From positions 1 to 47,512 of the IMG/VR virus record IMGVR_UViG_3300045738_001340: a stretch of DNA of 47,512 bases; one strand, 5' to 3'. This document shows positions 1-47,512 of the stretch, piece by piece. A program made the translations under genes and the position numbers. This stretch comes from a virus. Positions within the stretch are counted from its first letter, which is position 1, and each line of letters opens with the position of its first letter. Under the pieces are notes generated by a model. That model ran no database searches. It was not told the DNA's origin and saw nothing but the letters and a program-made list of their open reading frames with translations.

Positions 1-249
1 AGCGGTACGCCTCCTCCGCCTGGCTGCCTGGCGCCCCGTCACGTTCCCGCTGCATGGCGGCGAGCTGGGCGGCGATCCGCGGGTCCTTGAAGTTGCCGCG
101 CTCGTCCTGCAGGTCGGCGAGTACCTCGTCGACGTCGTCCACACCCAGGGCTTCGAGCATGAGTCGCAGGATGAGCAGCGGCGGCGCACCGGAGTCCAGG
201 GCGGTCTGCAGGGCGGTGAGCCGTTCGGAGAGGGGCAGGTCGGCGATCG
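1..249. repeat. Left copy of the near-identical terminal overlap
   Basis: Bases 1-249 align without gaps to 47264-47512 with nine substitutions, at positions 23, 24, 25, 29, 41, 116, 117, 118 and 122. All lie in the portal C-terminus. Four of the five altered codons are synonymous; the fifth changes Ala to Lys. This marks the window as a circular genome opened inside the portal gene, with ends drawn from two alleles. Confidence 0.9.
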
Positions 250-6480: not shown

Positions 6481-6860
6481 GGCTGCTCCTGTTCCGCATC
6501 GAAGAACACGACCGGCGTCCCGGTCAGGCCGGTCGGGTCCGGTATCCAGGCGCGGCGGCCCTCGTCGCCGTCTGGCCTCCATCGGCCCCACGCGGCGCGT
6601 CCGTTGTCCAGCACCCACGGGGCAGACCGGTCGTCGGCCTCCAGCTCGGCCATGGCCAGGGCACGGGCTGTCCTGTCGCTGTGCGTCCGCATCACGCAGA
6701 CCCCGATGACCATCCCGTCCTCGTCGCCGAGCAGCATCGCCTCGGGGAGCTTGCGCGGCCGGTACAGGCGGCCGTCCGGGCGGTGGACCGGTGTCGGCAC
6801 CCGTGGTGGCTCCGGGAACGCCTCGACCTGGGCGGCGTCGCCCCTCTGAGCACCGGTCAT
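6477..6860 (-). CDS. Hypothetical protein, 127 aa
   Basis: ATG 6860. A mixed alpha/beta composition with a central beta-rich stretch (MVIGVCVMRTHSD) and a C-terminal strand ending VVFFDAEQEQP. Shares the MTG...QRGD start with the downstream gene. Lies directly after the Dam-like methyltransferase in translation order. Function unknown. Confidence 0.65.
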   Translation of the reverse strand: MTGAQRGDAAQVEAFPEPPRVPTPVHRPDGRLYRPRKLPEAMLLGDEDGMVIGVCVMRTHSDRTARALAMAELEADDRSAPWVLDNGRAAWGRWRPDGDEGRRAWIPDPTGLTGTPVVFFDAEQEQP

Positions 6861-7363
6861 CGCGACCACACCAGCAGGCAGCAGCCGAACGGGGGCCGCT
6901 CGTTGGGCTTGACCTCGGTCGCGCCGGGCTTGATGAACCGCAGGCGGCCGGGCAGAAAGCGGACCGTCAGCGGGCCACCGCGGTCGCGATACTCCTCGAC
7001 GTGCTCCTGCCACCACGGCTGCTCGGGCCGGTTCGCGGGCAGCAGCATCACGATCGATGTCGGGCCGTCCGGTCGCCACCACTCGGTCCACGCCTTGTCG
7101 AGCCAGGCACTCAGGTTCGAGTACGGCGGGTTGCACCAGACCGACCCGTGCCACGGTTGCAGCAGCCCGTCGGCCAGGCGCGTGTAGTAGTTCGCGCACT
7201 TGGCGTTGTGCGGCGCGGCGGCCACATCCAGCGTGAAGCGGTACTCCCGGTCGAGCTCGTCCCAGAAGTCCTGGGGCGTGCCACGGTCGTCGATCTCGTC
7301 GTCGGCACCCTTGCGGGTCACCTGTTGCGGGTGGTTGGCGGCGCGGAAGCCGACGAGGCTCAT
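6857..7363 (-). CDS. DNA N6-adenine methyltransferase (phage Dam-like)
   Basis: 168 residues. The catalytic NPPY motif sits at 78-81 (WCNPPYSN) and the N-terminal TPQDFWDEL and DVAAAPHNAKC pattern is typical of the short phage Dam family. The family transfers a methyl group from S-adenosylmethionine to adenine N6. In phages this can guard the genome against host restriction or mark replicating DNA. No restriction enzyme lies nearby, so an orphan protective role fits best. The target sequence cannot be read from this gene alone. Confidence 0.85.
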   Translation of the reverse strand: MSLVGFRAANHPQQVTRKGADDEIDDRGTPQDFWDELDREYRFTLDVAAAPHNAKCANYYTRLADGLLQPWHGSVWCNPPYSNLSAWLDKAWTEWWRPDGPTSIVMLLPANRPEQPWWQEHVEEYRDRGGPLTVRFLPGRLRFIKPGATEVKPNERPPFGCCLLVWSR

Positions 7364-20792: not shown

Positions 20793-20872
20793 GTCCGTGC
20801 CGGTTCCGCAAGTTTCGTCCCACTAGTCACACGGACCACGCCGTGTCGCAGCAGCCATGTAGACAGTCAGTC

Positions 20873-21316
20873 ATGGGGGACTACGCAGGGCGATGGAGCC
20901 CATGGAGGCATCTGCGGCAACAGCACCCAGGAGTCGACGTCCGCGAAGCTGAACTGCCAGTCGGCTTCATGGGCTTCTGTGACCACTACGAGCGCACCAT
21001 CTGGCTGGACTCCCGGCTCACCTGCGCCGAGCAGCGGGCCACCCTCGCCCACGAGATCGGGCACCTCGAGCTGGACGTGCACGCAGGGGGGCGCTGGTAC
21101 TCGGCGCCGGAATGGAAGGTGGACCAGTGGGCGGCCCGCCGGCTGATCGAGCTCGGCGCGCTGCTGCGGGCCTTCCAGTGGACGGCCGATCTCGACGAGA
21201 TGGCCGAGGAACTGTGGGTGGACCGGCACACGCTGCGGGTGCGGCTGCGGTGCATGACCGATGAGGAGCAGGACGCGGTGATGGGCGCTATCAGCAAGCG
21301 GTGGACGGCGGCGTGA
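20873..21316 (+). CDS. ImmA/IrrE-type metalloprotease-like protein
   Basis: 147 residues from ATG 20873; an in-frame GTG at 20843 is possible and neither start has a good ribosome binding site. HEIGH at residues 60-64 is the zinc-binding HExxH motif. ImmA/IrrE proteins cleave or inactivate phage-type repressors in response to damage or signals. Here it lies between repressor and integrase in one transcript, so it probably controls the repressor encoded just upstream. Confidence 0.85.
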   Translation: MGDYAGRWSPWRHLRQQHPGVDVREAELPVGFMGFCDHYERTIWLDSRLTCAEQRATLAHEIGHLELDVHAGGRWYSAPEWKVDQWAARRLIELGALLRAFQWTADLDEMAEELWVDRHTLRVRLRCMTDEEQDAVMGAISKRWTAA

Positions 21317-22803
21317 GCAGGCGGCTACGGCCGGTCCCCTTGGCCAGCCCGCGTGCGGTGCTGTACCTGCGGCAGTCGGTGTCCCGCGACGACTCCATCA
21401 GCCTCGAGCTGCAGGAGACGGCGTGCCGGGACTACTGCGCGCGCCGCGGCTACTCGGTGGTCGAGGTCATCTCCGATCCCGGCATCTCTGGGCGCACCTG
21501 GAACCGGCCGGGTGTGCAGCGCACCTTGGACCTGGTCGAGACGGGGAAGGCCGACGTCATCGTGCTGTGGCGCTGGTCGCGGCTGTCCCGGTCCCGCAAG
21601 GACTGGGCGGTTGCCGTGGACCGGGTCGACGTCGCCGGCGGGGCCATCGAATCGGCCACCGAACCCGTGGACGTGTCGACCGCGGCCGGGCGGCTGCAGC
21701 GCGGCATGTTGGCCGAGCTGGCCGCCTGGGAGTCGGAGGTGAAGGGCGAGCAGTGGAAGGAGACCCATGCCCGCCGACGCTCGAAGGGCCTGCACCACTC
21801 GGGCGGCCACCGGCACGGCTACGTGTACCGGGAGGACAAGACGTGGGAGCCGGACCCGGACATGGCGCCGCTGGTGGTGTCCCTGTACCAGCAGTACGTG
21901 GCGGGCAAGGGGTACGCCAGCTTGGCCGACTGGTGCCGGGCGGTTGGGCTTCCCCCGCGGGTGCCGGGTACGCAGTGGACCCAGCGTGGGGTGGCGTCCG
22001 CGCTGCAGTCGGGGTTCGCCGCCGGCCTGATCAACGTGCACGACCCGGACTGCGGGTGCCGGAAGGCGAGCAGCTGCACGCGCCGGCTGATGCTGCCCGG
22101 CTCGCATGAGCCGATCGTCGACCAGAAGCTGTGGGAGGCCTTCGTGGCGGAGCGGCGACGGAGGGCCGGCACGCCGGCGCGGCTGCTGTCTCCGGGGACG
22201 CCCTTGGCTGGGCTGGTGCGCTGCGGGTCGTGCGGCTATTCGATGCCGTCGATGGGGCGGAAGCGCCGCGGCTACCAGTGCCCGAACCGGGGGTGCGCGG
22301 AGCCGTCGTCGGTGACGTTGGCGCGGGCGGAAGCGGAGGCGGTGGAGTGGCTGCGCGGCTACGCCGACGACGTCAGCCGGTCGGCGGCGATCGCCTCCTC
22401 CGATCAGGCGTCGCGGGCTACGGCGAAGTCGGCGGTGACCCGGCTGGCGCGGGCGGTGGCCCGGCTGGACGCGGAGTTGGTCACGCTCACTCGGGAGTAC
22501 GGCCGAGGTGTGATCCCGGAGGGCGCGTACGTGGCGGCCCGGGACGAGCTGGCACGGGAGCGGGAGGCGGCGCACGGCGAGTTGGATAGGGCGGCGGCGC
22601 GGCTGGCGCCAGCGCGACCATCCCGCCGTTCGGCGGCCGACGTGATCGCGCACTGGGACACCCTGCCGCCGGCGAAGTTGAACAAGGTGCTGCAGCCGCT
22701 GCTGCGGGTGGTGGTGTCCCGCGGCCCGTGGCGGTCGGAGGTGCGGGTTGTTCCGGCGTGGGAGTGGACGCCGGGAGCCGGCCGCCCTCCTGCTGCTGGT
22801 TAG
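21313..22803 (+). CDS. int: Large serine integrase
   Basis: 496 residues from GTG 21313, whose codon overlaps the metalloprotease stop. The resolvase domain has Y18, R20 and nucleophile S22 (YLRQSVS) and the R-hinge WRWSRLSRSRKDW. It continues into a recombinase domain, a zinc beta-ribbon (CGSCGYSM ... CPNRGC) and a coiled-coil tail, the full plan of large serine integrases. It would catalyse attP x attB integration without host factors. It is co-transcribed with the immunity genes. Confidence 0.95.
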   Translation: MSRRLRPVPLASPRAVLYLRQSVSRDDSISLELQETACRDYCARRGYSVVEVISDPGISGRTWNRPGVQRTLDLVETGKADVIVLWRWSRLSRSRKDWAVAVDRVDVAGGAIESATEPVDVSTAAGRLQRGMLAELAAWESEVKGEQWKETHARRRSKGLHHSGGHRHGYVYREDKTWEPDPDMAPLVVSLYQQYVAGKGYASLADWCRAVGLPPRVPGTQWTQRGVASALQSGFAAGLINVHDPDCGCRKASSCTRRLMLPGSHEPIVDQKLWEAFVAERRRRAGTPARLLSPGTPLAGLVRCGSCGYSMPSMGRKRRGYQCPNRGCAEPSSVTLARAEAEAVEWLRGYADDVSRSAAIASSDQASRATAKSAVTRLARAVARLDAELVTLTREYGRGVIPEGAYVAARDELAREREAAHGELDRAAARLAPARPSRRSAADVIAHWDTLPPAKLNKVLQPLLRVVVSRGPWRSEVRVVPAWEWTPGAGRPPAAG

Positions 22804-22941
22804 CGAACGGTGCTGAACGTCACCGGTCCTGAACCCGCATGACGTCTTCCGGGCGGCGCCCGGACGCGCCGATTCCTTGCGAGACGACAGCTTCCCGCCG
22901 TGGTGGGCTGCCCACAACCGACACCCTCTGGAGGGGATTTC
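22804..22941. other. Intergenic candidate attP region with two inverted repeats
   Basis: The 138 bp between integrase and lipoprotein hold CCGGGCG-G-CGCCCGG (22849-22863) and GTGGGC-T-GCCCAC (22903-22915). Serine integrase attP sites are about 50 bp and usually lie beside int. The first repeat could instead terminate the integrase transcript. No crossover dinucleotide can be chosen from sequence alone. Confidence 0.3.
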
Positions 22942-23379: not shown

Positions 23380-23532
23380 GTGCCGTGGTGGGGTTTGGCG
23401 TTGTGCGTGTGGCCGTTCGCGGCGGGTGTCGTCGGCCTGGGGGTGGGGCGGCTGCTCAGACGTCTCCTGGCGCTTCCCGTCAGCTCCCCGGCGGGAGGAC
23501 GAACGACAGCGACACGTAGGGCAGTGAGGTAG
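23380..23532 (+). CDS. Possible small membrane protein, 50 aa
   Basis: GTG 23380 preceded by GAGGGGGAG. One hydrophobic helix (residues 2-24) and a basic C-terminus (RLLRRLL ... TRRAVR). The last 53 bp overlap the end of the converging tail-fibre gene. Confidence 0.45.
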   Translation: MPWWGLALCVWPFAAGVVGLGVGRLLRRLLALPVSSPAGGRTTATRRAVR

Positions 23533-24238
23533 GCCGCGTCGCGGTGCGGGTGCCGGTGGCCGCCGTGGACGACAGCGGCTCGTCGGCCGCAGCCACGCCC
23601 ACGTGGTAGCTGCCGTACACGTCGGCGCGTTCGGTCATGCCGCCCGGCGTGGTGGTGCCGCCGTCGCCGCCGATGAATGTGGTGGTGCCCTGCATCCAGG
23701 CGGAAACCAGCAGCCCGTCGACCACGCCGGTGGTGGAGGGTGCGACGAGGCTGGTGGAGTTCGACCCGGAGCCGCCCCATGCGATGTTGGTGGGTTCCCC
23801 GGCGGTGTCGTAGGCGAGGATGGCGGCGACTCGTGCGGCGGCGTCGCCGTTGAGGATGGGCACCACCACGGGGTCGGTGTCGGAGCCGGTTGCCTGGCGG
23901 GTGAACAGGAACGCCCGGCCCGCGCTGCCGGAGAACGTGGAGTTGGCCGAGGTGCGGGTCCAGCCGGTGGGGTCGCCGATGGATGCCTCACTGTCGAGGA
24001 ATCGGGAGCCCATCATGATGAGGACGAGCCGGTCCCCGGCCTGCACGCCGGTGGGTAGGGGCACGGAGATGTCGGTGTTGGCCGCGGCCTGCTGCACGCC
24101 GCTGGACGCCGACCGGAACGCCGGCGGGCTGGTGGCGGGGGCGGCCGACCACGCCAGGGTGGCCCCGACGTACACGGCGGTGGCTGCGGTGCTACCGACG
24201 TAGACGGCGGCGGGCTGCGCTCCGGCGCTCAGGACCAT
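23480..24238 (-). CDS. Tail-fibre-type protein, paralogous module B
   Basis: 252 residues from ATG 24238. Residues about 30-250 align to residues 133-365 of the protein encoded at 24872-25984: shared anchors include QQAA near the start, LFTR, PILNGDA, AWMQG, TFIGG, MTER and SYPYVSL/SLPYVSL. The module is beta-rich, Thr/Ser/Gly-rich and likely part of the virion tip. It is the last gene of the late operon. Receptor binding is inferred. Confidence 0.7.
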   Translation of the reverse strand: MVLSAGAQPAAVYVGSTAATAVYVGATLAWSAAPATSPPAFRSASSGVQQAAANTDISVPLPTGVQAGDRLVLIMMGSRFLDSEASIGDPTGWTRTSANSTFSGSAGRAFLFTRQATGSDTDPVVVPILNGDAAARVAAILAYDTAGEPTNIAWGGSGSNSTSLVAPSTTGVVDGLLVSAWMQGTTTFIGGDGGTTTPGGMTERADVYGSYHVGVAAADEPLSSTAATGTRTATRPTSLPYVSLSFVLPPGS

Positions 24239-24846
24239 CAGGGGATCACCACGTAGGCGGTGGTGGCGTCCTTGCTGCCGATGGCGTCGTAGGCGGCCTG
24301 GGTGCCGATCCACAGCTTGGCGTTGGTGGTGGCTGCGGTGACCTTGGTGTCGGCGACGGCCTTGACGCCGGCTGGGGTGACGGCGCGCGCTGTGTCGGTG
24401 CCGGTGGTGGCCTCGGTGGTGGTGGCGAGTTCGACGACGCCGGTGGCGCTGGTGGTGGCCGCGCCCACGCCGAGGGTGATGGTGTCGGCGGCGTCGTCCA
24501 CGGTTTCGGTGAGCGGGGCGGTGACGTTGAGGGCGGTGGCGATGGTGTCGCGCACGACCTCGGGGTCAGTTGTGCCACCACCGGCGGGCAGGGCGGTCCA
24601 TGCCCCGGTGGCGCCGTCCACGTAGGTGCCGGCGGCGGGGGTGCCGCTGCCGAGGCGGGCGGTGGCGAGCACCCCGGAGGTGACGGCGGACGCGGGGTGG
24701 GTGTGGGATGCGGCGGCCGCGCCGGTGGCGGTGCGGGCGGCTGCCGCGTCCACAGCCTTGAGCACGGCGCGCCCGGTCTCGGTGGAGCCGACGAGCGGCG
24801 TGACCTCGTCCTGCACGTCCTGGTGGGTCTGCGGTGGCCATGCCAT
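24238..24846 (-). CDS. Tail fibre protein with collar-type repeats, 202 aa
   Basis: Overlaps its neighbours. The segments SHTHPASAVTSGVLATARLG and SATGVVELATTTEATTG...AVTPAGVKAV are hallmark phage tail-fibre repeats. The C-terminus IGTQAAYDAIGSKDATTAYVV resembles short chaperone- or attachment-like ends of minor fibres. It is likely a trimeric fibre. Confidence 0.8.
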   Translation of the reverse strand: MAWPPQTHQDVQDEVTPLVGSTETGRAVLKAVDAAAARTATGAAAASHTHPASAVTSGVLATARLGSGTPAAGTYVDGATGAWTALPAGGGTTDPEVVRDTIATALNVTAPLTETVDDAADTITLGVGAATTSATGVVELATTTEATTGTDTARAVTPAGVKAVADTKVTAATTNAKLWIGTQAAYDAIGSKDATTAYVVIP

Positions 24847-24871: not shown

Positions 24872-25984
24872 TCATGAGTGGGCTGCCCACGGGTCGGTGC
24901 CGGTCCAGGTGCCGGCGGCGATCCAGTTGGGTTCGGCGGTGGCGGGCTGGATGACCAGCGTCAGGGACACGTACGGGTAGGAGGTGCCGCGGGCTGCTGC
25001 CCGCACACCGGTCGGCCCGTCGGCGGTGATCGGCTCGTCTGCTGCGGCGATGCCGTTGTGGTAGTCGCCGTGGAAGTCGACCCGCTCGGTCATGGACACC
25101 GGCGGGGTGGTGCCGGAGCCGCCGATGAACGTGTCGCCGCCCTGCATCCACGCGCACAGCAGCCGCCCGTTGGCGACGCCGGTGGTGGTGGGCGCGTCCA
25201 GGGATGTGGCGGCCGTGCCGGACCCGCCCCAGGTGACGCCGGAGATCCCTGCCGCGGAGCTGTAGGCGAGGATGGTGGCGGTGCGCGCCGATGCGTCCCC
25301 GTTGAGGATGGGGACGGTGACGGTGCCGCCCAGGTCGGCGGACTGCGCGCGGCGGGTGAACAGCAGGGCGTGCCCCGCGGTGCCGGCGTAGCTGGAGTTG
25401 GTGGCCGCCCGCGTCCACCCGGCAGGGGTGCCCACGTTGGCCTGCGTGTCCAGGAACCGGTTGGTGCGCATCACGAGCAGCATCAGGTCCCCGGCCTGCG
25501 TGCCTACCGGCACCGGCGCCGTCAGCGAGGTGTCGGCGGCGGCCTGCTGCGCGCCCGTGGAGGCGGCCCGGAACACCGGGGTGGCCGTGGGGGCGGCCGG
25601 GAGAGTGACCGGCTCCGACGTGGCGCCCAGCGAGTAGTTGCCCGCCGCGTCCACCGCCGACACCGAGTAGGTGTGGGTGCTGCCCGCGGCCAGCCCGGTG
25701 TCGGTGAACGACAGGCCGGGCACGCTGGCGGCGATGGTCTGCGTGCCGCGGCGCACCCGGTAGCCGACCACCCCCACGTCGTCGGTGGCCGCGGGCCACG
25801 ACACGTCGACCGTGCTCGAGGAGGTGGCGGTCGCGGTCACCGTCGCCGGGCCGTTCGGCGGGGTGCCGTCCCCGCCGGTGGGCTTGGACCACAGCAGCTC
25901 GGCGCCCCGGTAGACGGCGGTCACCTCGCGGGCGCCCAAGCGCACGCCGGTCACCTCGGCGTCGCCCAGGTACAGGCCGGGCAT
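24872..25984 (-). CDS. Minor tail/fibre protein with FN3 domain and module A
   Basis: 370 residues. The start (MPGLYLGDAEVTGVRLGARE) is typical of actinophage minor tail proteins. A fibronectin type III domain at about 38-128 (VSWPAATDDVGVVGYRVRRG) precedes a beta-rich module at 133-365 homologous to the gene at 23480-24238. Adjacent to the collar-type fibre gene and to the tailspike, so it belongs to the tip complex. Confidence 0.75.
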   Translation of the reverse strand: MPGLYLGDAEVTGVRLGAREVTAVYRGAELLWSKPTGGDGTPPNGPATVTATATSSSTVDVSWPAATDDVGVVGYRVRRGTQTIAASVPGLSFTDTGLAAGSTHTYSVSAVDAAGNYSLGATSEPVTLPAAPTATPVFRAASTGAQQAAADTSLTAPVPVGTQAGDLMLLVMRTNRFLDTQANVGTPAGWTRAATNSSYAGTAGHALLFTRRAQSADLGGTVTVPILNGDASARTATILAYSSAAGISGVTWGGSGTAATSLDAPTTTGVANGRLLCAWMQGGDTFIGGSGTTPPVSMTERVDFHGDYHNGIAAADEPITADGPTGVRAAARGTSYPYVSLTLVIQPATAEPNWIAAGTWTGTDPWAAHS

Positions 25985-28146
25985 CAGAGGGACCGGGTGC
26001 CGTGCACCAGGGTGCGCAGCCCCTTACCGGGCACATGCACCTGCTGCGACAGCACGGCCGCCCGGGTGGGGTTCATCAGCTGGTAGATGTCGAGCACGAT
26101 GTTGCCGTAGCTGTCGCCGATCAGGTTCCCGGAGTAGTCCACGTTCTGCGGGTTGTTGACGGTGCCGGACTTGGTGTGCGCCCGCAGCGGCGCACCGAAC
26201 AGCGTCGACTCGTTGATGTCGGTCAGCGTCGAGGTGGACACGTCCGGCTTCACCATGAACGTGGACGTGTTGGCGCCCCGCCCGTCGATGAAGATGCGGT
26301 CCATGCGCACCTGCCCGGCCATCTGCTGCACCCCGTCCTGGTGGTGCCCGGCCGGGTTGGAGGTGGCCATCGAGTGCATGAAGATGTACTTGCCGTACAT
26401 GAGGCCGCCGGTGCCGTAGAGCCGCAGCCCGTCGTAGTGGCGGACGATCTCCACGAACTCCAGGGTGACGCGGGAGTTCTGGTGGACTTCCATCATGCCG
26501 GTGAGGCCGGTGTTGCCGCCGCCGTCGAGGAGGGCGTGGCGCAGGGTGAGGTGGGCGTTGCCGTTGACGCGGATGTCGGCGCCGCGCATGGTGATCTGCT
26601 CGATGGTGACCACGGCGGAAACGGTGAGCCGCCCGGTGATGGTCTTGCCGCGCAGGGCGTCGGCCTGCGCCTGCGTGGTGACGGTGGTGGCGCCGACGGT
26701 GCCGGTGCGGGGGATGCGGCGGGGGGCCAGGTTGTCCAGGTACCAGCGGCGCATCGTCTCGATGTTCTTGGTGGCCCAGGCGGTCGCGTAGGAGGCGTCG
26801 AGGTCGGTGGGGTCGACCGGGTCCGGGTTCTCCGGGTCGGTCGGCTCCGGCTCCGGCAGGGGCGCGGTGGCGGACACGGTGAACGTGTCGGTGTGCGCCT
26901 GCGAGGCCACGCCGTCGCTGTACTGCACGACGGTGGTGAGGGTATGCGTGCCGGCGCCCAGGGTGGACAGGTCCAGGGGCAGCGCCGCGAAGTTGGAGGA
27001 GGCGTCACCGGCGCCCATCAGGTCGTAGGGGGCGAACGCTTCCCCGTAGGCGCGGAACCCGTTGTCGAGGTTGAAGTCGACGCGGGCGATGCCGGGCCCG
27101 GCCGGGACGAACACGTAAATCTGCCCGGACAGGTCGGTCTTGCCGGCCAGCGTGACCGGGTTGGTCCGGTCGCCGGAGGTGGAGTAGACGACGGGGGAGG
27201 TGACCGGGAGCGGCTGCGTGGGGGCGGTGACGGTCACGCCCTGCGTCTGGTTGGACGACTTGCCGTTGTCGTCGGTGACGACGAGGGTCACCTGGAAGGT
27301 GCCGCCCGCGGCGTAGGTGCGGGTGGCGACCGGGCCGGTGGCGGTGGCGCCGTCACCGAAGTCCCAGGCGTAGGAGGCGATGGACGCCCCGAACGCCGCC
27401 GTGGAGGACCCGGAGCCGTCCACCGACAGGGTGAGCCCGGTGGCGCTGTAGGTGAAGGTGGCGACGGGGGCGGGCGGTTCTTCCTCGGCGAGCTCGGCGA
27501 CGGTGAAGTAGATGGCGGTGTCGGCTGGGCTGGTGAGGGCCGCGTAGTCGTCGGCGGTGATGGCCCGCAGTTCGGTGATGCCGTATCCGGCGACGGCGGA
27601 CATGACGGTGCGGGCTTCCTGTGGGCTGTCGGCGGTGGCGACGCTGCGGCCGATGCTGGTGGCGTCGCCGAGGGACGCGACGGGCTGGGTGCCGGTGTGG
27701 CTGGACCGGTCGCGCAGGTCGACGTCGGCGCCGGAGAAGTCCCACACTCCGGCGGGGGTGACGGTGGGGGCGGCTTCGACGACGGACAGCACGTCGCCGG
27801 TGACTCCGGCCAGCGCCAGGTCGGCGGCCTCGCGGGCGGCGACGGCTTCGATGAGCGCCTGGTCGGCGGTTTCCTGCACGTCGATGGCGGCGTCGCGGGC
27901 CTGGTCGGAGACGACGGGGATCTGCACGGACCCGAAGTCGAGGACGCCGTGGCGGATGTCGGCGGTGAACGCGGGGGAGGCGCCCTTGGGTCCGACGACG
28001 ATCGGGCGCGGGGAGCCGTTGAGGTCGTAGGTGGGGACGGATGGCTGCCCGGCGGCGGGCCGCAGCACTCCGGTGGTGCCGGTGGCGGCGAGTTCGCCGG
28101 TGGTTTCCACCAGCACCGCGACCGCGGGGTACGTGTAGTCGGGCAT
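25984..28146 (-). CDS. Tailspike with PKD domain and C-terminal beta-helix
   Basis: 720 residues from ATG 28146. The N-terminal 220 residues are fibre-like with helical stalk (IDVQETADQALIEAVAAREA). Residues 227-310 form a PKD fold (YAWDFGDGATATG ... VTDDNG). After a Pro/Glu-rich linker, residues about 540-715 resemble a right-handed beta-helix with regular short turns (RVNGNAHLTLRHALLDGGGN, RLYGTGGLMYG), as in polysaccharide-binding or -degrading spikes. No catalytic residues can be assigned. Confidence 0.75.
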   Translation of the reverse strand: MPDYTYPAVAVLVETTGELAATGTTGVLRPAAGQPSVPTYDLNGSPRPIVVGPKGASPAFTADIRHGVLDFGSVQIPVVSDQARDAAIDVQETADQALIEAVAAREAADLALAGVTGDVLSVVEAAPTVTPAGVWDFSGADVDLRDRSSHTGTQPVASLGDATSIGRSVATADSPQEARTVMSAVAGYGITELRAITADDYAALTSPADTAIYFTVAELAEEEPPAPVATFTYSATGLTLSVDGSGSSTAAFGASIASYAWDFGDGATATGPVATRTYAAGGTFQVTLVVTDDNGKSSNQTQGVTVTAPTQPLPVTSPVVYSTSGDRTNPVTLAGKTDLSGQIYVFVPAGPGIARVDFNLDNGFRAYGEAFAPYDLMGAGDASSNFAALPLDLSTLGAGTHTLTTVVQYSDGVASQAHTDTFTVSATAPLPEPEPTDPENPDPVDPTDLDASYATAWATKNIETMRRWYLDNLAPRRIPRTGTVGATTVTTQAQADALRGKTITGRLTVSAVVTIEQITMRGADIRVNGNAHLTLRHALLDGGGNTGLTGMMEVHQNSRVTLEFVEIVRHYDGLRLYGTGGLMYGKYIFMHSMATSNPAGHHQDGVQQMAGQVRMDRIFIDGRGANTSTFMVKPDVSTSTLTDINESTLFGAPLRAHTKSGTVNNPQNVDYSGNLIGDSYGNIVLDIYQLMNPTRAAVLSQQVHVPGKGLRTLVHGTRSL

Positions 28147-28180
28147 CTGCGTGGCCTCCAGGGCGTCGGTCGGGGTGGTG

Positions 28181-28654
28181 CTAGAGCAATGCGTGGACGG
28201 CGCGGTCAGCCAGATAGGCGACACATGCCGCGGTGGTGGCCGCTGCGGCGCCGATGGCGGCCACGGCGGGTGCGTCCCGCCAGAACTGCGACGGGCGCCG
28301 GCCCTTGCTGAACGGGGCCGCGGTGCGCACCGCGGCCCACATCAGCCAGCGGCGCACCGGGTCCGTCCCCTCCTCCCGAAGGACGCGGCGGAACACCCCG
28401 TCCGTCTGCCGAGAGGTGATCAGCCCGGCGGGGATTCCATCGGTGATGAACCAGTCGTGCAGGGTCGCGGCGAGAGTCCAGACGCCGGTGCGGGGGACGA
28501 GCCACTGCACGAACCACGGCACGGTGGCGAAGTCGGTGCGGTAGCCGGAAGGGATCGTCCAGTGGTCGACGCGCCCCTGGTAGGAGAGGGGGGCGACGAG
28601 CTCCCATGTGGTCGGGTCGACGTGGCGAACCAGCAGCGGGGTGGTGAACGGCAT
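28181..28654 (-). CDS. DUF1353-like phage protein, 157 aa
   Basis: ATG 28654. The pattern WTIPSGYRTDFATVPWF, then LHDWFI and a C-terminal helix pair match the DUF1353 family, found near lysis and tail genes of many phages. Its role is unknown. A C-terminal hydrophobic stretch (AAIGAAAATTAACVAYLA) may insert in a membrane. Confidence 0.7.
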   Translation of the reverse strand: MPFTTPLLVRHVDPTTWELVAPLSYQGRVDHWTIPSGYRTDFATVPWFVQWLVPRTGVWTLAATLHDWFITDGIPAGLITSRQTDGVFRRVLREEGTDPVRRWLMWAAVRTAAPFSKGRRPSQFWRDAPAVAAIGAAAATTAACVAYLADRAVHALL

Positions 28655-38274: not shown

Positions 38275-38744
38275 GGTCAGGCGGCGGCGGGGATGACGGC
38301 GTTCTTCTCCGGCGGCTCCGGGATGGAGAAGCCCACCTGGAACTGGCCGTAGGACGACAGGTCGATCTGGTCGTTCACCCCGGCGGAGATGGCCGGCCAG
38401 CACTCGCACCGCTCGCCCGGGTAGTCCCCGTACGGCAGCTTGACGAGCACCAGCGTCGTGCCCTCCTCGAGGACGTCGCGGTTGGTGGTGTCGCCGCGCA
38501 CGTCCTTGAAGGTGAGGGAGGAGTCGCCGGCGGAGCGCTCCCCGGCCACGTTGCCGGTGAACGACGAGTCGAGGTCGGGGGTGGGCACGAAGGCGGTGGA
38601 GATCTGGAAGCCGGCGATGCCGACGATGTTGGTGAGCGGGGTGCCGGCGTCGAGTTCGGCGCGGGTGGGGGCAGCCAGGTTGGCGACGGCCGGGCAGGCG
38701 ATGAACTGGGTGACTGTGGTTCCCCCGAGATCGTGGAGGACTTC

Positions 38745-39656
38745 TTATGCCGCTTCTCGGGTGAGGGCGGCGTTCTCGTAGTTGATCGGGGACTGGCCGG
38801 CGGCTGCGCTGTGCCGGCGCTGGGTGTTGTAGAACCCGTAGCACCAGTCGATCACGACGGCGCGGGCCTTCGCCACGGTGTCGAACTCGTGTCGGGACAG
38901 CACCTCCCACTCCAGGCTGGAGAAGAACGCCTCCGCGGCGGCGTTGTCGAAGCACGAGCCGACCCGGCCCATCGACTGGCGAATCTCGAGCCGGCGGCAA
39001 AGGGCGGTGAACTTGTCGGCGGTGTAGGTCGAGCCTCGGTCGGTGTGGAAGATGACGCCGTCGATGTGCTCGGCGCCGCCGCGGGCCGCCACCGCCATCT
39101 TGATCGCATCACAAGCCAGCTGCGCGTCGGGATGCAGGCCGGTGGCCGCGCCCAGTAGCCGCCGCGAGAACAGGTCGATCACCGTCGCCAGGTACAACTT
39201 CCCGGCCGCGGTCGGGATCTCGGTCATGTCGCCGACCCAGCGGCAGTTCGGCGCCGGGGCGGTGAAGTCGCGCTTGAGCAGGTCGGGGAACTTCGGCGCG
39301 GTCTTGTCCTGCACGGTCAGCCCGTTGCGCCGGCGGATCTTGCGGGCGACCAGGCCCTGGCGGCGCATCGAGTCGGCGACGGTCTTCTCCGACACCGTCC
39401 AACCGGCCTCGCGCAGGTCGGTCACCAGCCGGGGCGAGCCGTGCAGCCCGCGCGCTGCCTTGAACGCCTTGGCCACCGCTTCGTCGACCTGGGCGCGTCG
39501 CTGCTCGGTCGCCGTCGGGGTGCGGCTGAGCCACTTGTAGAACCACGAGATCGAGACCCCCAGCAGCGCGCAGGTGATCGTGTGCGGCACCCGGTAGTTG
39601 GTCCTCTGGTCGGCGACGAAGCGGGCCACGCTCACTTCGTCGCCTCCTTCACCCAC
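38745..39656 (-). CDS. IS3 transposase OrfB (DDE catalytic subunit)
   Basis: 303 residues from GTG 39656, in the -1 frame relative to OrfA and overlapping it by 25 bp. It has an HTH-type N-terminus and an integrase core with D143 (GDMTEIP), D206 (HTDRGST) and E242 (DNAAAEAFF), the DDE triad. The full transposase OrfAB would arise by programmed -1 frameshifting. Confidence 0.95.
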   Translation of the reverse strand: MGEGGDEVSVARFVADQRTNYRVPHTITCALLGVSISWFYKWLSRTPTATEQRRAQVDEAVAKAFKAARGLHGSPRLVTDLREAGWTVSEKTVADSMRRQGLVARKIRRRNGLTVQDKTAPKFPDLLKRDFTAPAPNCRWVGDMTEIPTAAGKLYLATVIDLFSRRLLGAATGLHPDAQLACDAIKMAVAARGGAEHIDGVIFHTDRGSTYTADKFTALCRRLEIRQSMGRVGSCFDNAAAEAFFSSLEWEVLSRHEFDTVAKARAVVIDWCYGFYNTQRRHSAAAGQSPINYENAALTREAA

Positions 39657-39922
39657 AGGACCACGGATCGCTTGAGGACATCACGCTCCATCCGCAGCTC
39701 GGCGTTCTCCGCACGCAGCCGCTTGAGTTCCTCGATGTCACCCCGGGACAGGCCCTCGGTGCCCTCCCGGGCCTCCCGGGCCTTGACCACCCAGTTGCCC
39801 AGGGTGCCCTCGTTGACCCCCAGGTCACGGGCCACGTGAGCGATCGACTTCCCGGTCTCCTCGACGATCCGGACAGCTCCCTCGCGGAACTCCCGGTCGT
39901 ACTTCTTGCGCGTCTCTGGCAT
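39632..39922 (-). CDS. IS3 transposase OrfA (DNA-binding subunit)
   Basis: 96 residues from ATG 39922. HTH (GKSIAHVARDLGVNEGTLGN) followed by a leucine-zipper-like coiled coil (RAENAELRMERDVLKRS). It recognises the inverted repeats and regulates transposition. Confidence 0.95.
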   Translation of the reverse strand: MPETRKKYDREFREGAVRIVEETGKSIAHVARDLGVNEGTLGNWVVKAREAREGTEGLSRGDIEELKRLRAENAELRMERDVLKRSVVLWVKEATK

Positions 39923-40037
39923 CGCTACTCCTTATAGCTGATGCCTCCGCGGTCTCGGGGGAACCCCAGACGCCGCGGATGAAGAACGGGCCGGTGGGTG
40001 CGGTCATGGCGAGAGGCTCCTGGAGGTGTGGCGGGGG

Positions 40038-40373
40038 TCAGGGGATGTCGAAGACGGCGACGGTCACCGTGGTTACCGTCGAGTAGTCGATGTGGACGAC
40101 CCCGCCGGCCTGCTTGTAGGCGGCCGTGGTGCCGAACGCGATGAGCTGCTCGCCGCCGGCGGCGACGGTGATGGTGCGGTCGGCGACCGCCAGCCCGTCC
40201 ACCAGCTGCGGGGTGGGGGCTGTGACGGTGACCGCCGAAGCGCTGCCGTTCTTGACGTGCAGCGCCCGCCCTGGCAGGAGCCGGAAGCTGTTGCCGTCGA
40301 CGTTGGCCGGCTCGTAGGCGGGGGCGCGGCCGGCGGAGGTGACTGCCTGCGCGGTGATGGGCGTGCGGGCCAT
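40038..40373 (-). CDS. Small structural protein, head-tail region, 111 aa
   Basis: ATG 40373. Beta-rich (NSFRLLPGRALHVKNGSASAV), resembling small tail or decoration proteins. It sits between the tube gene and the tail terminator. Exact role unknown. Confidence 0.65.
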   Translation of the reverse strand: MARTPITAQAVTSAGRAPAYEPANVDGNSFRLLPGRALHVKNGSASAVTVTAPTPQLVDGLAVADRTITVAAGGEQLIAFGTTAAYKQAGGVVHIDYSTVTTVTVAVFDIP

Positions 40374-47262: not shown

Positions 47263-47512
47263 CAGCGGTACGCCTCCTCCGCCTGCGAGCCGGGCGCCCC
47301 GTCGCGTTCCCGCTGCATGGCGGCGAGCTGGGCGGCGATCCGCGGGTCCTTGAAGTTGCCGCGCTCGTCCTGCAGGTCCTTGAGCACCTCGTCGACGTCG
47401 TCCACACCCAGGGCTTCGAGCATGAGTCGCAGGATGAGCAGCGGCGGCGCACCGGAGTCCAGGGCGGTCTGCAGGGCGGTGAGCCGTTCGGAGAGGGGCA
47501 GGTCGGCGATCG
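47262..47512 (-). CDS. Portal protein C-terminus (continues into base 1 side)
   Basis: The last 83 codons including TGA at 47264-47262. It is the variant copy of bases 1-249: same product except Lys for Ala in EVL-x-DLQ. It supplies the stop missing on the left edge and joins to the MuF start. Confidence 0.85.
   Translation of the reverse strand, partial: IADLPLSERLTALQTALDSGAPPLLILRLMLEALGVDDVDEVLKDLQDERGNFKDPRIAAQLAAMQRERDGAPGSQAEEAYR
47264..47512. repeat. Right copy of the near-identical terminal overlap
   Basis: Partner of 1-249; 240 of 249 bases match and there are no gaps. It shows that the sequence closes into a circle of about 47,263 bp. Confidence 0.9.

Follow-up and report, generated by a model that had tools for sequence, protein, structure and literature searches.

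The DNA analysed here, which we call the window, corresponds to the entire virus record IMGVR_UViG_3300045738_001340; it has 47,512 bases, is classed as linear in IMG/VR and has a G+C content of about 72%. The tail tube gene of this phage is located on the minus strand, between the head-tail connector genes and the tape measure gene of the operon, and is split by an insertion sequence (IS) of the IS3 family. The features of the locus are listed below, where L002 and L203 denote the virus records IMGVR_UViG_3300025875_000073 and IMGVR_UViG_3300036652_002016, respectively.

38277..38714, minus strand: tail tube gene, downstream piece and stop, 145 codons including the duplicated one (profile matches)
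38712..38714, no strand: target-site duplication GAC, copy 1 (3-bp alignment overlap against L002 and L203)
38715..39968, minus strand: IS3-family insertion sequence, 1254 bp (ends, target-site duplication, homologue ends and transposase families)
38715..38739, plus strand: terminal inverted repeat, low-coordinate end (22 of 25 bases matched to the other end)
38745..39656, minus strand: OrfB, DDE transposase with rve domain (PF00665, E 1.6e-27)
39632..39922, minus strand: OrfA, 96 aa, HTH_Tnp_1 (PF01527, E 2.4e-16)
39825..40007, minus strand: 60-aa fusion frame of 13 tail tube and 47 IS codons, then stop
39944..39968, minus strand: terminal inverted repeat, high-coordinate end (end comparison)
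39969..39971, no strand: target-site duplication GAC, copy 2 (3-bp alignment overlap against L002 and L203)
39969..40007, minus strand: tail tube gene, codons 1-13, upstream piece (matched in L002 and L203)

The IS has several of the characters by which the IS3 family is recognized. Its termini, TGTGGTTCCCCCGAGATCGTGGAGG and the complement of CCTCCGCGGTCTCGGGGGAACCCCA, form the 25-bp inverted repeats, and both open with 5'-TG (TGTGG... and TGGGG...). In the window, the 13-base inner part of the repeat is present only at the two IS ends, with 0.11 matches expected by chance. Two consecutive overlapping frames encode OrfA, with the helix-turn-helix domain, and OrfB, with the DDE/rve domain; OrfB also matched the IS3 family transposase model of NCBIfam (NF033516) with an E value of 1.2e-82, above the cut-off. 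The element is flanked by a perfect GAC/GAC duplication, within the 3-5 bp of the family and equal to the 3-bp overlap against the empty sites described below. The preliminary description had reported a complete element with both inverted repeats, both transposase frames and the 3-bp duplication at 38715-39968, and all of these were confirmed. OrfB is in the -1 frame, and the canonical slippery heptamer was not seen by eye. A Shine-Dalgarno-like AAGGAGG precedes the GTGA overlap of OrfA and OrfB, and, as judged from the sequence, the translation of OrfB probably starts at the inner GTG just past OrfA.

From its start at 40007, the tail tube gene runs for 13 codons before the IS interrupts it. 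As had been proposed, the two pieces join in frame into 157 codons when the IS is removed. The downstream piece alone matched the Pfam family Phage_TTP_16 (E 2.6e-20), with residues 2-144 covering positions 13-167 of the 167 in the profile, and phrog_2491, major tail protein (E 2e-15), so the suspected homology of the interrupted gene to tube proteins was borne out. A second intact tail tube gene, which would have spoken against the preliminary description, was not found among the ORFs scanned with PHROG and Pfam, i.e., those predicted for head and tail proteins as well as others. An ORF at 40038-40373, immediately upstream of the tail tube gene, encodes a 111-aa 'tail protein' (phrog_16194), which was matched in L203 and not found in L002; it may be a variable small virion gene.

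The state of the gene before the insertion is visible in two relatives. L002 and L203, with 85% and 72% nucleotide identity, respectively, share with this phage the collinear head-tail genes and the orthologous tail tube gene, but in both of them this gene is uninterrupted and contains no IS. In each case, the alignments to the two flanks in the window overlap by exactly 3 bases, which are the duplicated target. The same empty site in two relatives leaves little doubt that a transposition event took place. From the comparison of the downstream piece with L002, a dN of 0.12 and a dS of 0.36 were obtained, which would be expected if purifying selection had acted on the gene until recently. The interrupted gene has accumulated no frameshift or stop, and the proposal that the insertion is recent is supported by this intactness, the sole measure of its age.

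The IS and the tail operon point in the same direction. OrfB is in frame with the tail tube gene, and its TAA is located ten codons short of the IS end. Beyond the IS, the first possible in-frame start (ATG, GTG or TTG) is a GTG at residue 55 of the joined gene. In siphophage assembly, absence of the tube protein results in filled heads without tails. The present phage copy should, from its disrupted frames, be unable to build tails.

To place the element and its phage, homologues were compared. IS copies 88-89% identical to the present one were found in the Pseudonocardia dioxanivorans plasmid pPSED01 and in Modestobacter caceresii, and a fragment of the IS with 90% identity in a further genome of the Modestobacter family. 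The Pseudonocardia and Modestobacter copies have the same full length (1254-1255 bp), the same terminal repeats and a two-frame transposase, and are flanked by target duplications of 3-4 bp. Since the ends and the length of these homologues agree with those in the window, the IS boundaries are not arbitrary. The homologues differ from the present IS in nucleotide sequence, and the present copy lies in a phage. A search for the IS in the likely host had been suggested; among about 500 genomes of the two likely host families it yielded homologues, the best full-length ones being 88-89% identical, but no identical copy. This IS is probably a separate, unnamed iso-element, as far as its sequence tells. 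Phage relatives are also present in two genomes of the Modestobacter family, with identities of 63% for the terminase, 55% for the tail tube protein, and 44% and 65% for the integrases. The relatives appear to point to Geodermatophilaceae or Pseudonocardia hosts, i.e., soil actinobacteria. With protein identities of 44-65% and non-identical IS copies as the guide, the host is most likely a member of Geodermatophilaceae or a near relative.

A second group of features, in the middle of the window, bears on the lifestyle of the phage.

20843..21316, plus strand: ImmA/IrrE-like metalloprotease (PF06114, E 2.7e-7; phrog_87)
21301..22803, plus strand: serine integrase (phrog_95, E 7.1e-87; Resolvase, Recombinase and Zn_ribbon_recom)
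22805..22815, plus strand: probable attP core GAACGGTGCTG, an 11-mer two bases past the integrase stop

The serine integrase and the ImmA-like protease indicate that the phage is temperate. The candidate attP 11-mer, which accompanies the integrase, is common to integrated relatives: it is found at the phage/host junction beside the integrase in the prophages G083/L177 and L178. In the window it occurs once and is followed by more phage-like genes, not by host genes. The integrases with 63-65% identity are in integrated prophages, in which host Tad-pilus-like genes start just past the integrase. Towards the opposite end of the G083 prophage, no repeat of the attP-like core was found within the 40 kb examined, and the attB-like gene segment, searched for across the Modestobacter family, was found only in G083 itself. 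Another related prophage of this family, L185 (G051:C323, after 30362), is located inside a comM/yifB-like gene beside dprA. Since the G083 prophage, with its 65%-identical integrase, lies at a Tad-pilus-like gene, related integrases use different attachment genes; the names Tad-pilus-like, comM-like and dprA were assigned by reading translations and not by family search.

Some other genes of the window were also examined. The DNA methyltransferase frame at 6857-7363 covers only positions 46-202 of the 345 in the profile, and the rest of the profile was not found in the neighbouring frames; it may represent either a short version of the gene or a remnant. In the late-gene region beside the integrase, two diverged copies with 69% identity (23490-24147 and 24945-25599) are possibly a duplicated tail-tip or fibre gene, and the neighbouring protein at 24238-24846 has a Phage_tail_C tip domain. 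A 746-aa protein with a PKD domain is encoded at 25984-28224 in the tail/lysis region, and is possibly a receptor-binding or adhesion protein.

The two ends of the window overlap by 249 bp within the portal gene.

1..249, no strand: terminal overlap, left copy, portal gene (96.4% identical to 47264-47512)
47264..47512, no strand: terminal overlap, right copy, portal gene (last 127 bases exact)

The longest suffix of the contig that recurs is exactly 127 bases long and is located at 123-249. Nine mismatches precede it, in the first 122 bases of the overlap. They change one amino acid, and for this reason are read as strain variation. The 127-base recurrence would be the end of a de Bruijn path with k=127 meeting itself, where k is deduced from the overlap; in principle, it could be a chance stopping point rather than the assembler k-mer. 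The contig is thus probably a circle of 47,263 bp that closes inside the portal gene and was classed as linear by IMG/VR, and a second strain, of which the first 122 bases are a branch, probably co-occurs in the sample. The integrase is mid-contig with phage genes on either side, which is not the arrangement of an integrated prophage, where host sequence would bound the contig at attL and attR beside the integrase. The circular closure in the portal gene and the unbroken run of the contig across the attP-like site indicate that the sequenced molecule was most likely non-integrated, i.e., excised, replicating or packaged. The earlier suggestion of a trapped prophage, integrated and immobile, is disfavoured by the self-closure with its exact 127-base overlap, and also by the passage of the contig through a site that is the phage/host junction in related prophages.

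We searched for this IS in the viral contig set (viral_contigs) by protein and by the terminal-repeat pattern, and none was found. Among annotated phages, the sole DNA match to the IS was 97 bases long, and IS3-like OrfB proteins were present in 126 of 50,697 phage records, all with less than 60% identity. IS elements have been described in 347 temperate phages (PMC8136500). In a 2010 paper, one IS each was found in 8 of 284 phages, including Sf6, HK022 and P1, and IS-bearing mutants of lambda and Mu were noted (PMC3091744). Shigella phage Sf6 with IS911 and Burkholderia phage KS5 with ISBmu23 likewise have one complete IS each in temperate genomes that are otherwise ordinary; however, the IS of KS5 is reported to disrupt no ORF (PMC3091744), whereas here a virion gene that should be essential is inactivated. 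The IS-induced mutants of lambda and Mu represent the same kind of spontaneous phage mutation (PMC3091744), but they are laboratory mutants, while the present one was recovered as an IMG/VR virus record. A limited literature search, which does not prove absence, found no direct precedent for an IS that had naturally inserted into the tail tube gene of a phage. The preliminary description held that insertion sequences are rare in free phage genomes. This is true of virulent phages, but IS elements are documented in temperate phages, and because the present phage is temperate, the finding is less surprising than had been stated. The insertion is genuine, but insertions of this kind are well known, and the mechanism is that of textbooks.

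How this genome came to be sequenced can be read in several ways. An assembly chimera, in which a host IS was joined to phage contigs, might be imagined from the relatives of the IS in host genomes and plasmids. However, such a chimera would yield no target-site duplication, while the window has exact IS ends on both sides and a perfect 3-bp duplication of the interrupted codon, whose bases are present as a single copy in the relatives, and we regard this reading as scarcely credible. A decaying prophage fixed in the chromosome, with the IS as an early step of domestication, would suit a temperate phage, and IS insertions into the structural genes of prophages are ordinary. Against this, the attP-like site lies inside the contig, flanked by phage genes, and the contig ends overlap in the portal gene. 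Apart from the tail tube gene, no gene was found to be clearly broken; the other head, tail, lysis and replication genes that were recognised have open frames. Such decay is thus very unlikely.

A minority variant is another reading, in which most phages in the sample are intact and the assembler took a rare, IS-bearing path. The population is probably mixed, a second strain being suggested by the nine mismatches, and the relatives in which the tail tube gene was found have it intact. However, a commoner empty-site path, or many IS copies in the host, would be expected normally to break a de Bruijn contig, and no near-identical empty-site contig was found in viral_contigs, a set that may lack near-identical records. 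We consider this reading unlikely. The continuity of the contig over both IS junctions weakly suggests, instead, that the occupied site is dominant in the sample. The second strain, 96.4% identical in the overlap, makes helper co-infection or complementation possible. It is distinctly unlikely, on our estimate, that the tail-less genome with the IS dominates among the non-integrated forms and that a co-occurring intact strain propagates it by complementation; if true, this would be a natural defective phage lineage that arose from one transposition event.

We consider it probable that the window represents a temperate siphophage in the course of excision or replication, whose genome, hit by a host IS, is defective and tail-less. 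Copy-and-paste transposition and a host origin of the IS are what would be expected of the family. A temperate siphophage of an actinobacterium would have acquired a host-derived IS3-family element in this way. As the sequence shows, the element entered the tail tube gene behind codon 13, along the orientation of the tail operon, and 3 bp were duplicated. Translation from the tail tube start would then stop after 60 residues, inside the IS, as the frames predict. The remaining 144 codons would have no usable start before residue 55, and presumably no tube protein would be made. From what is known of siphophage tail assembly, such a genome should remain able to excise and replicate, to fill heads and to lyse the cell, but the particles would be tail-less and non-infectious unless an intact phage supplies the tube. 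The sequenced molecule would not be the integrated form but the 47,263-bp circle spanning attP, with at least one other strain present. The IS most likely jumped in during lysogeny or in the most recent round of infection, and the DNA in the record would derive from excised or replicating genomes.

Only two points set the insertion apart: virions should require the targeted gene, and the genome was obtained in free form. It provides a clear case in which a host IS inactivates a presumably essential virion gene, in a non-integrated genome and with the pre-insertion state visible in relatives. A contig in free form can still be a dead phage. The finding also shows how phages can acquire IS elements, and possibly move them, between actinobacteria.
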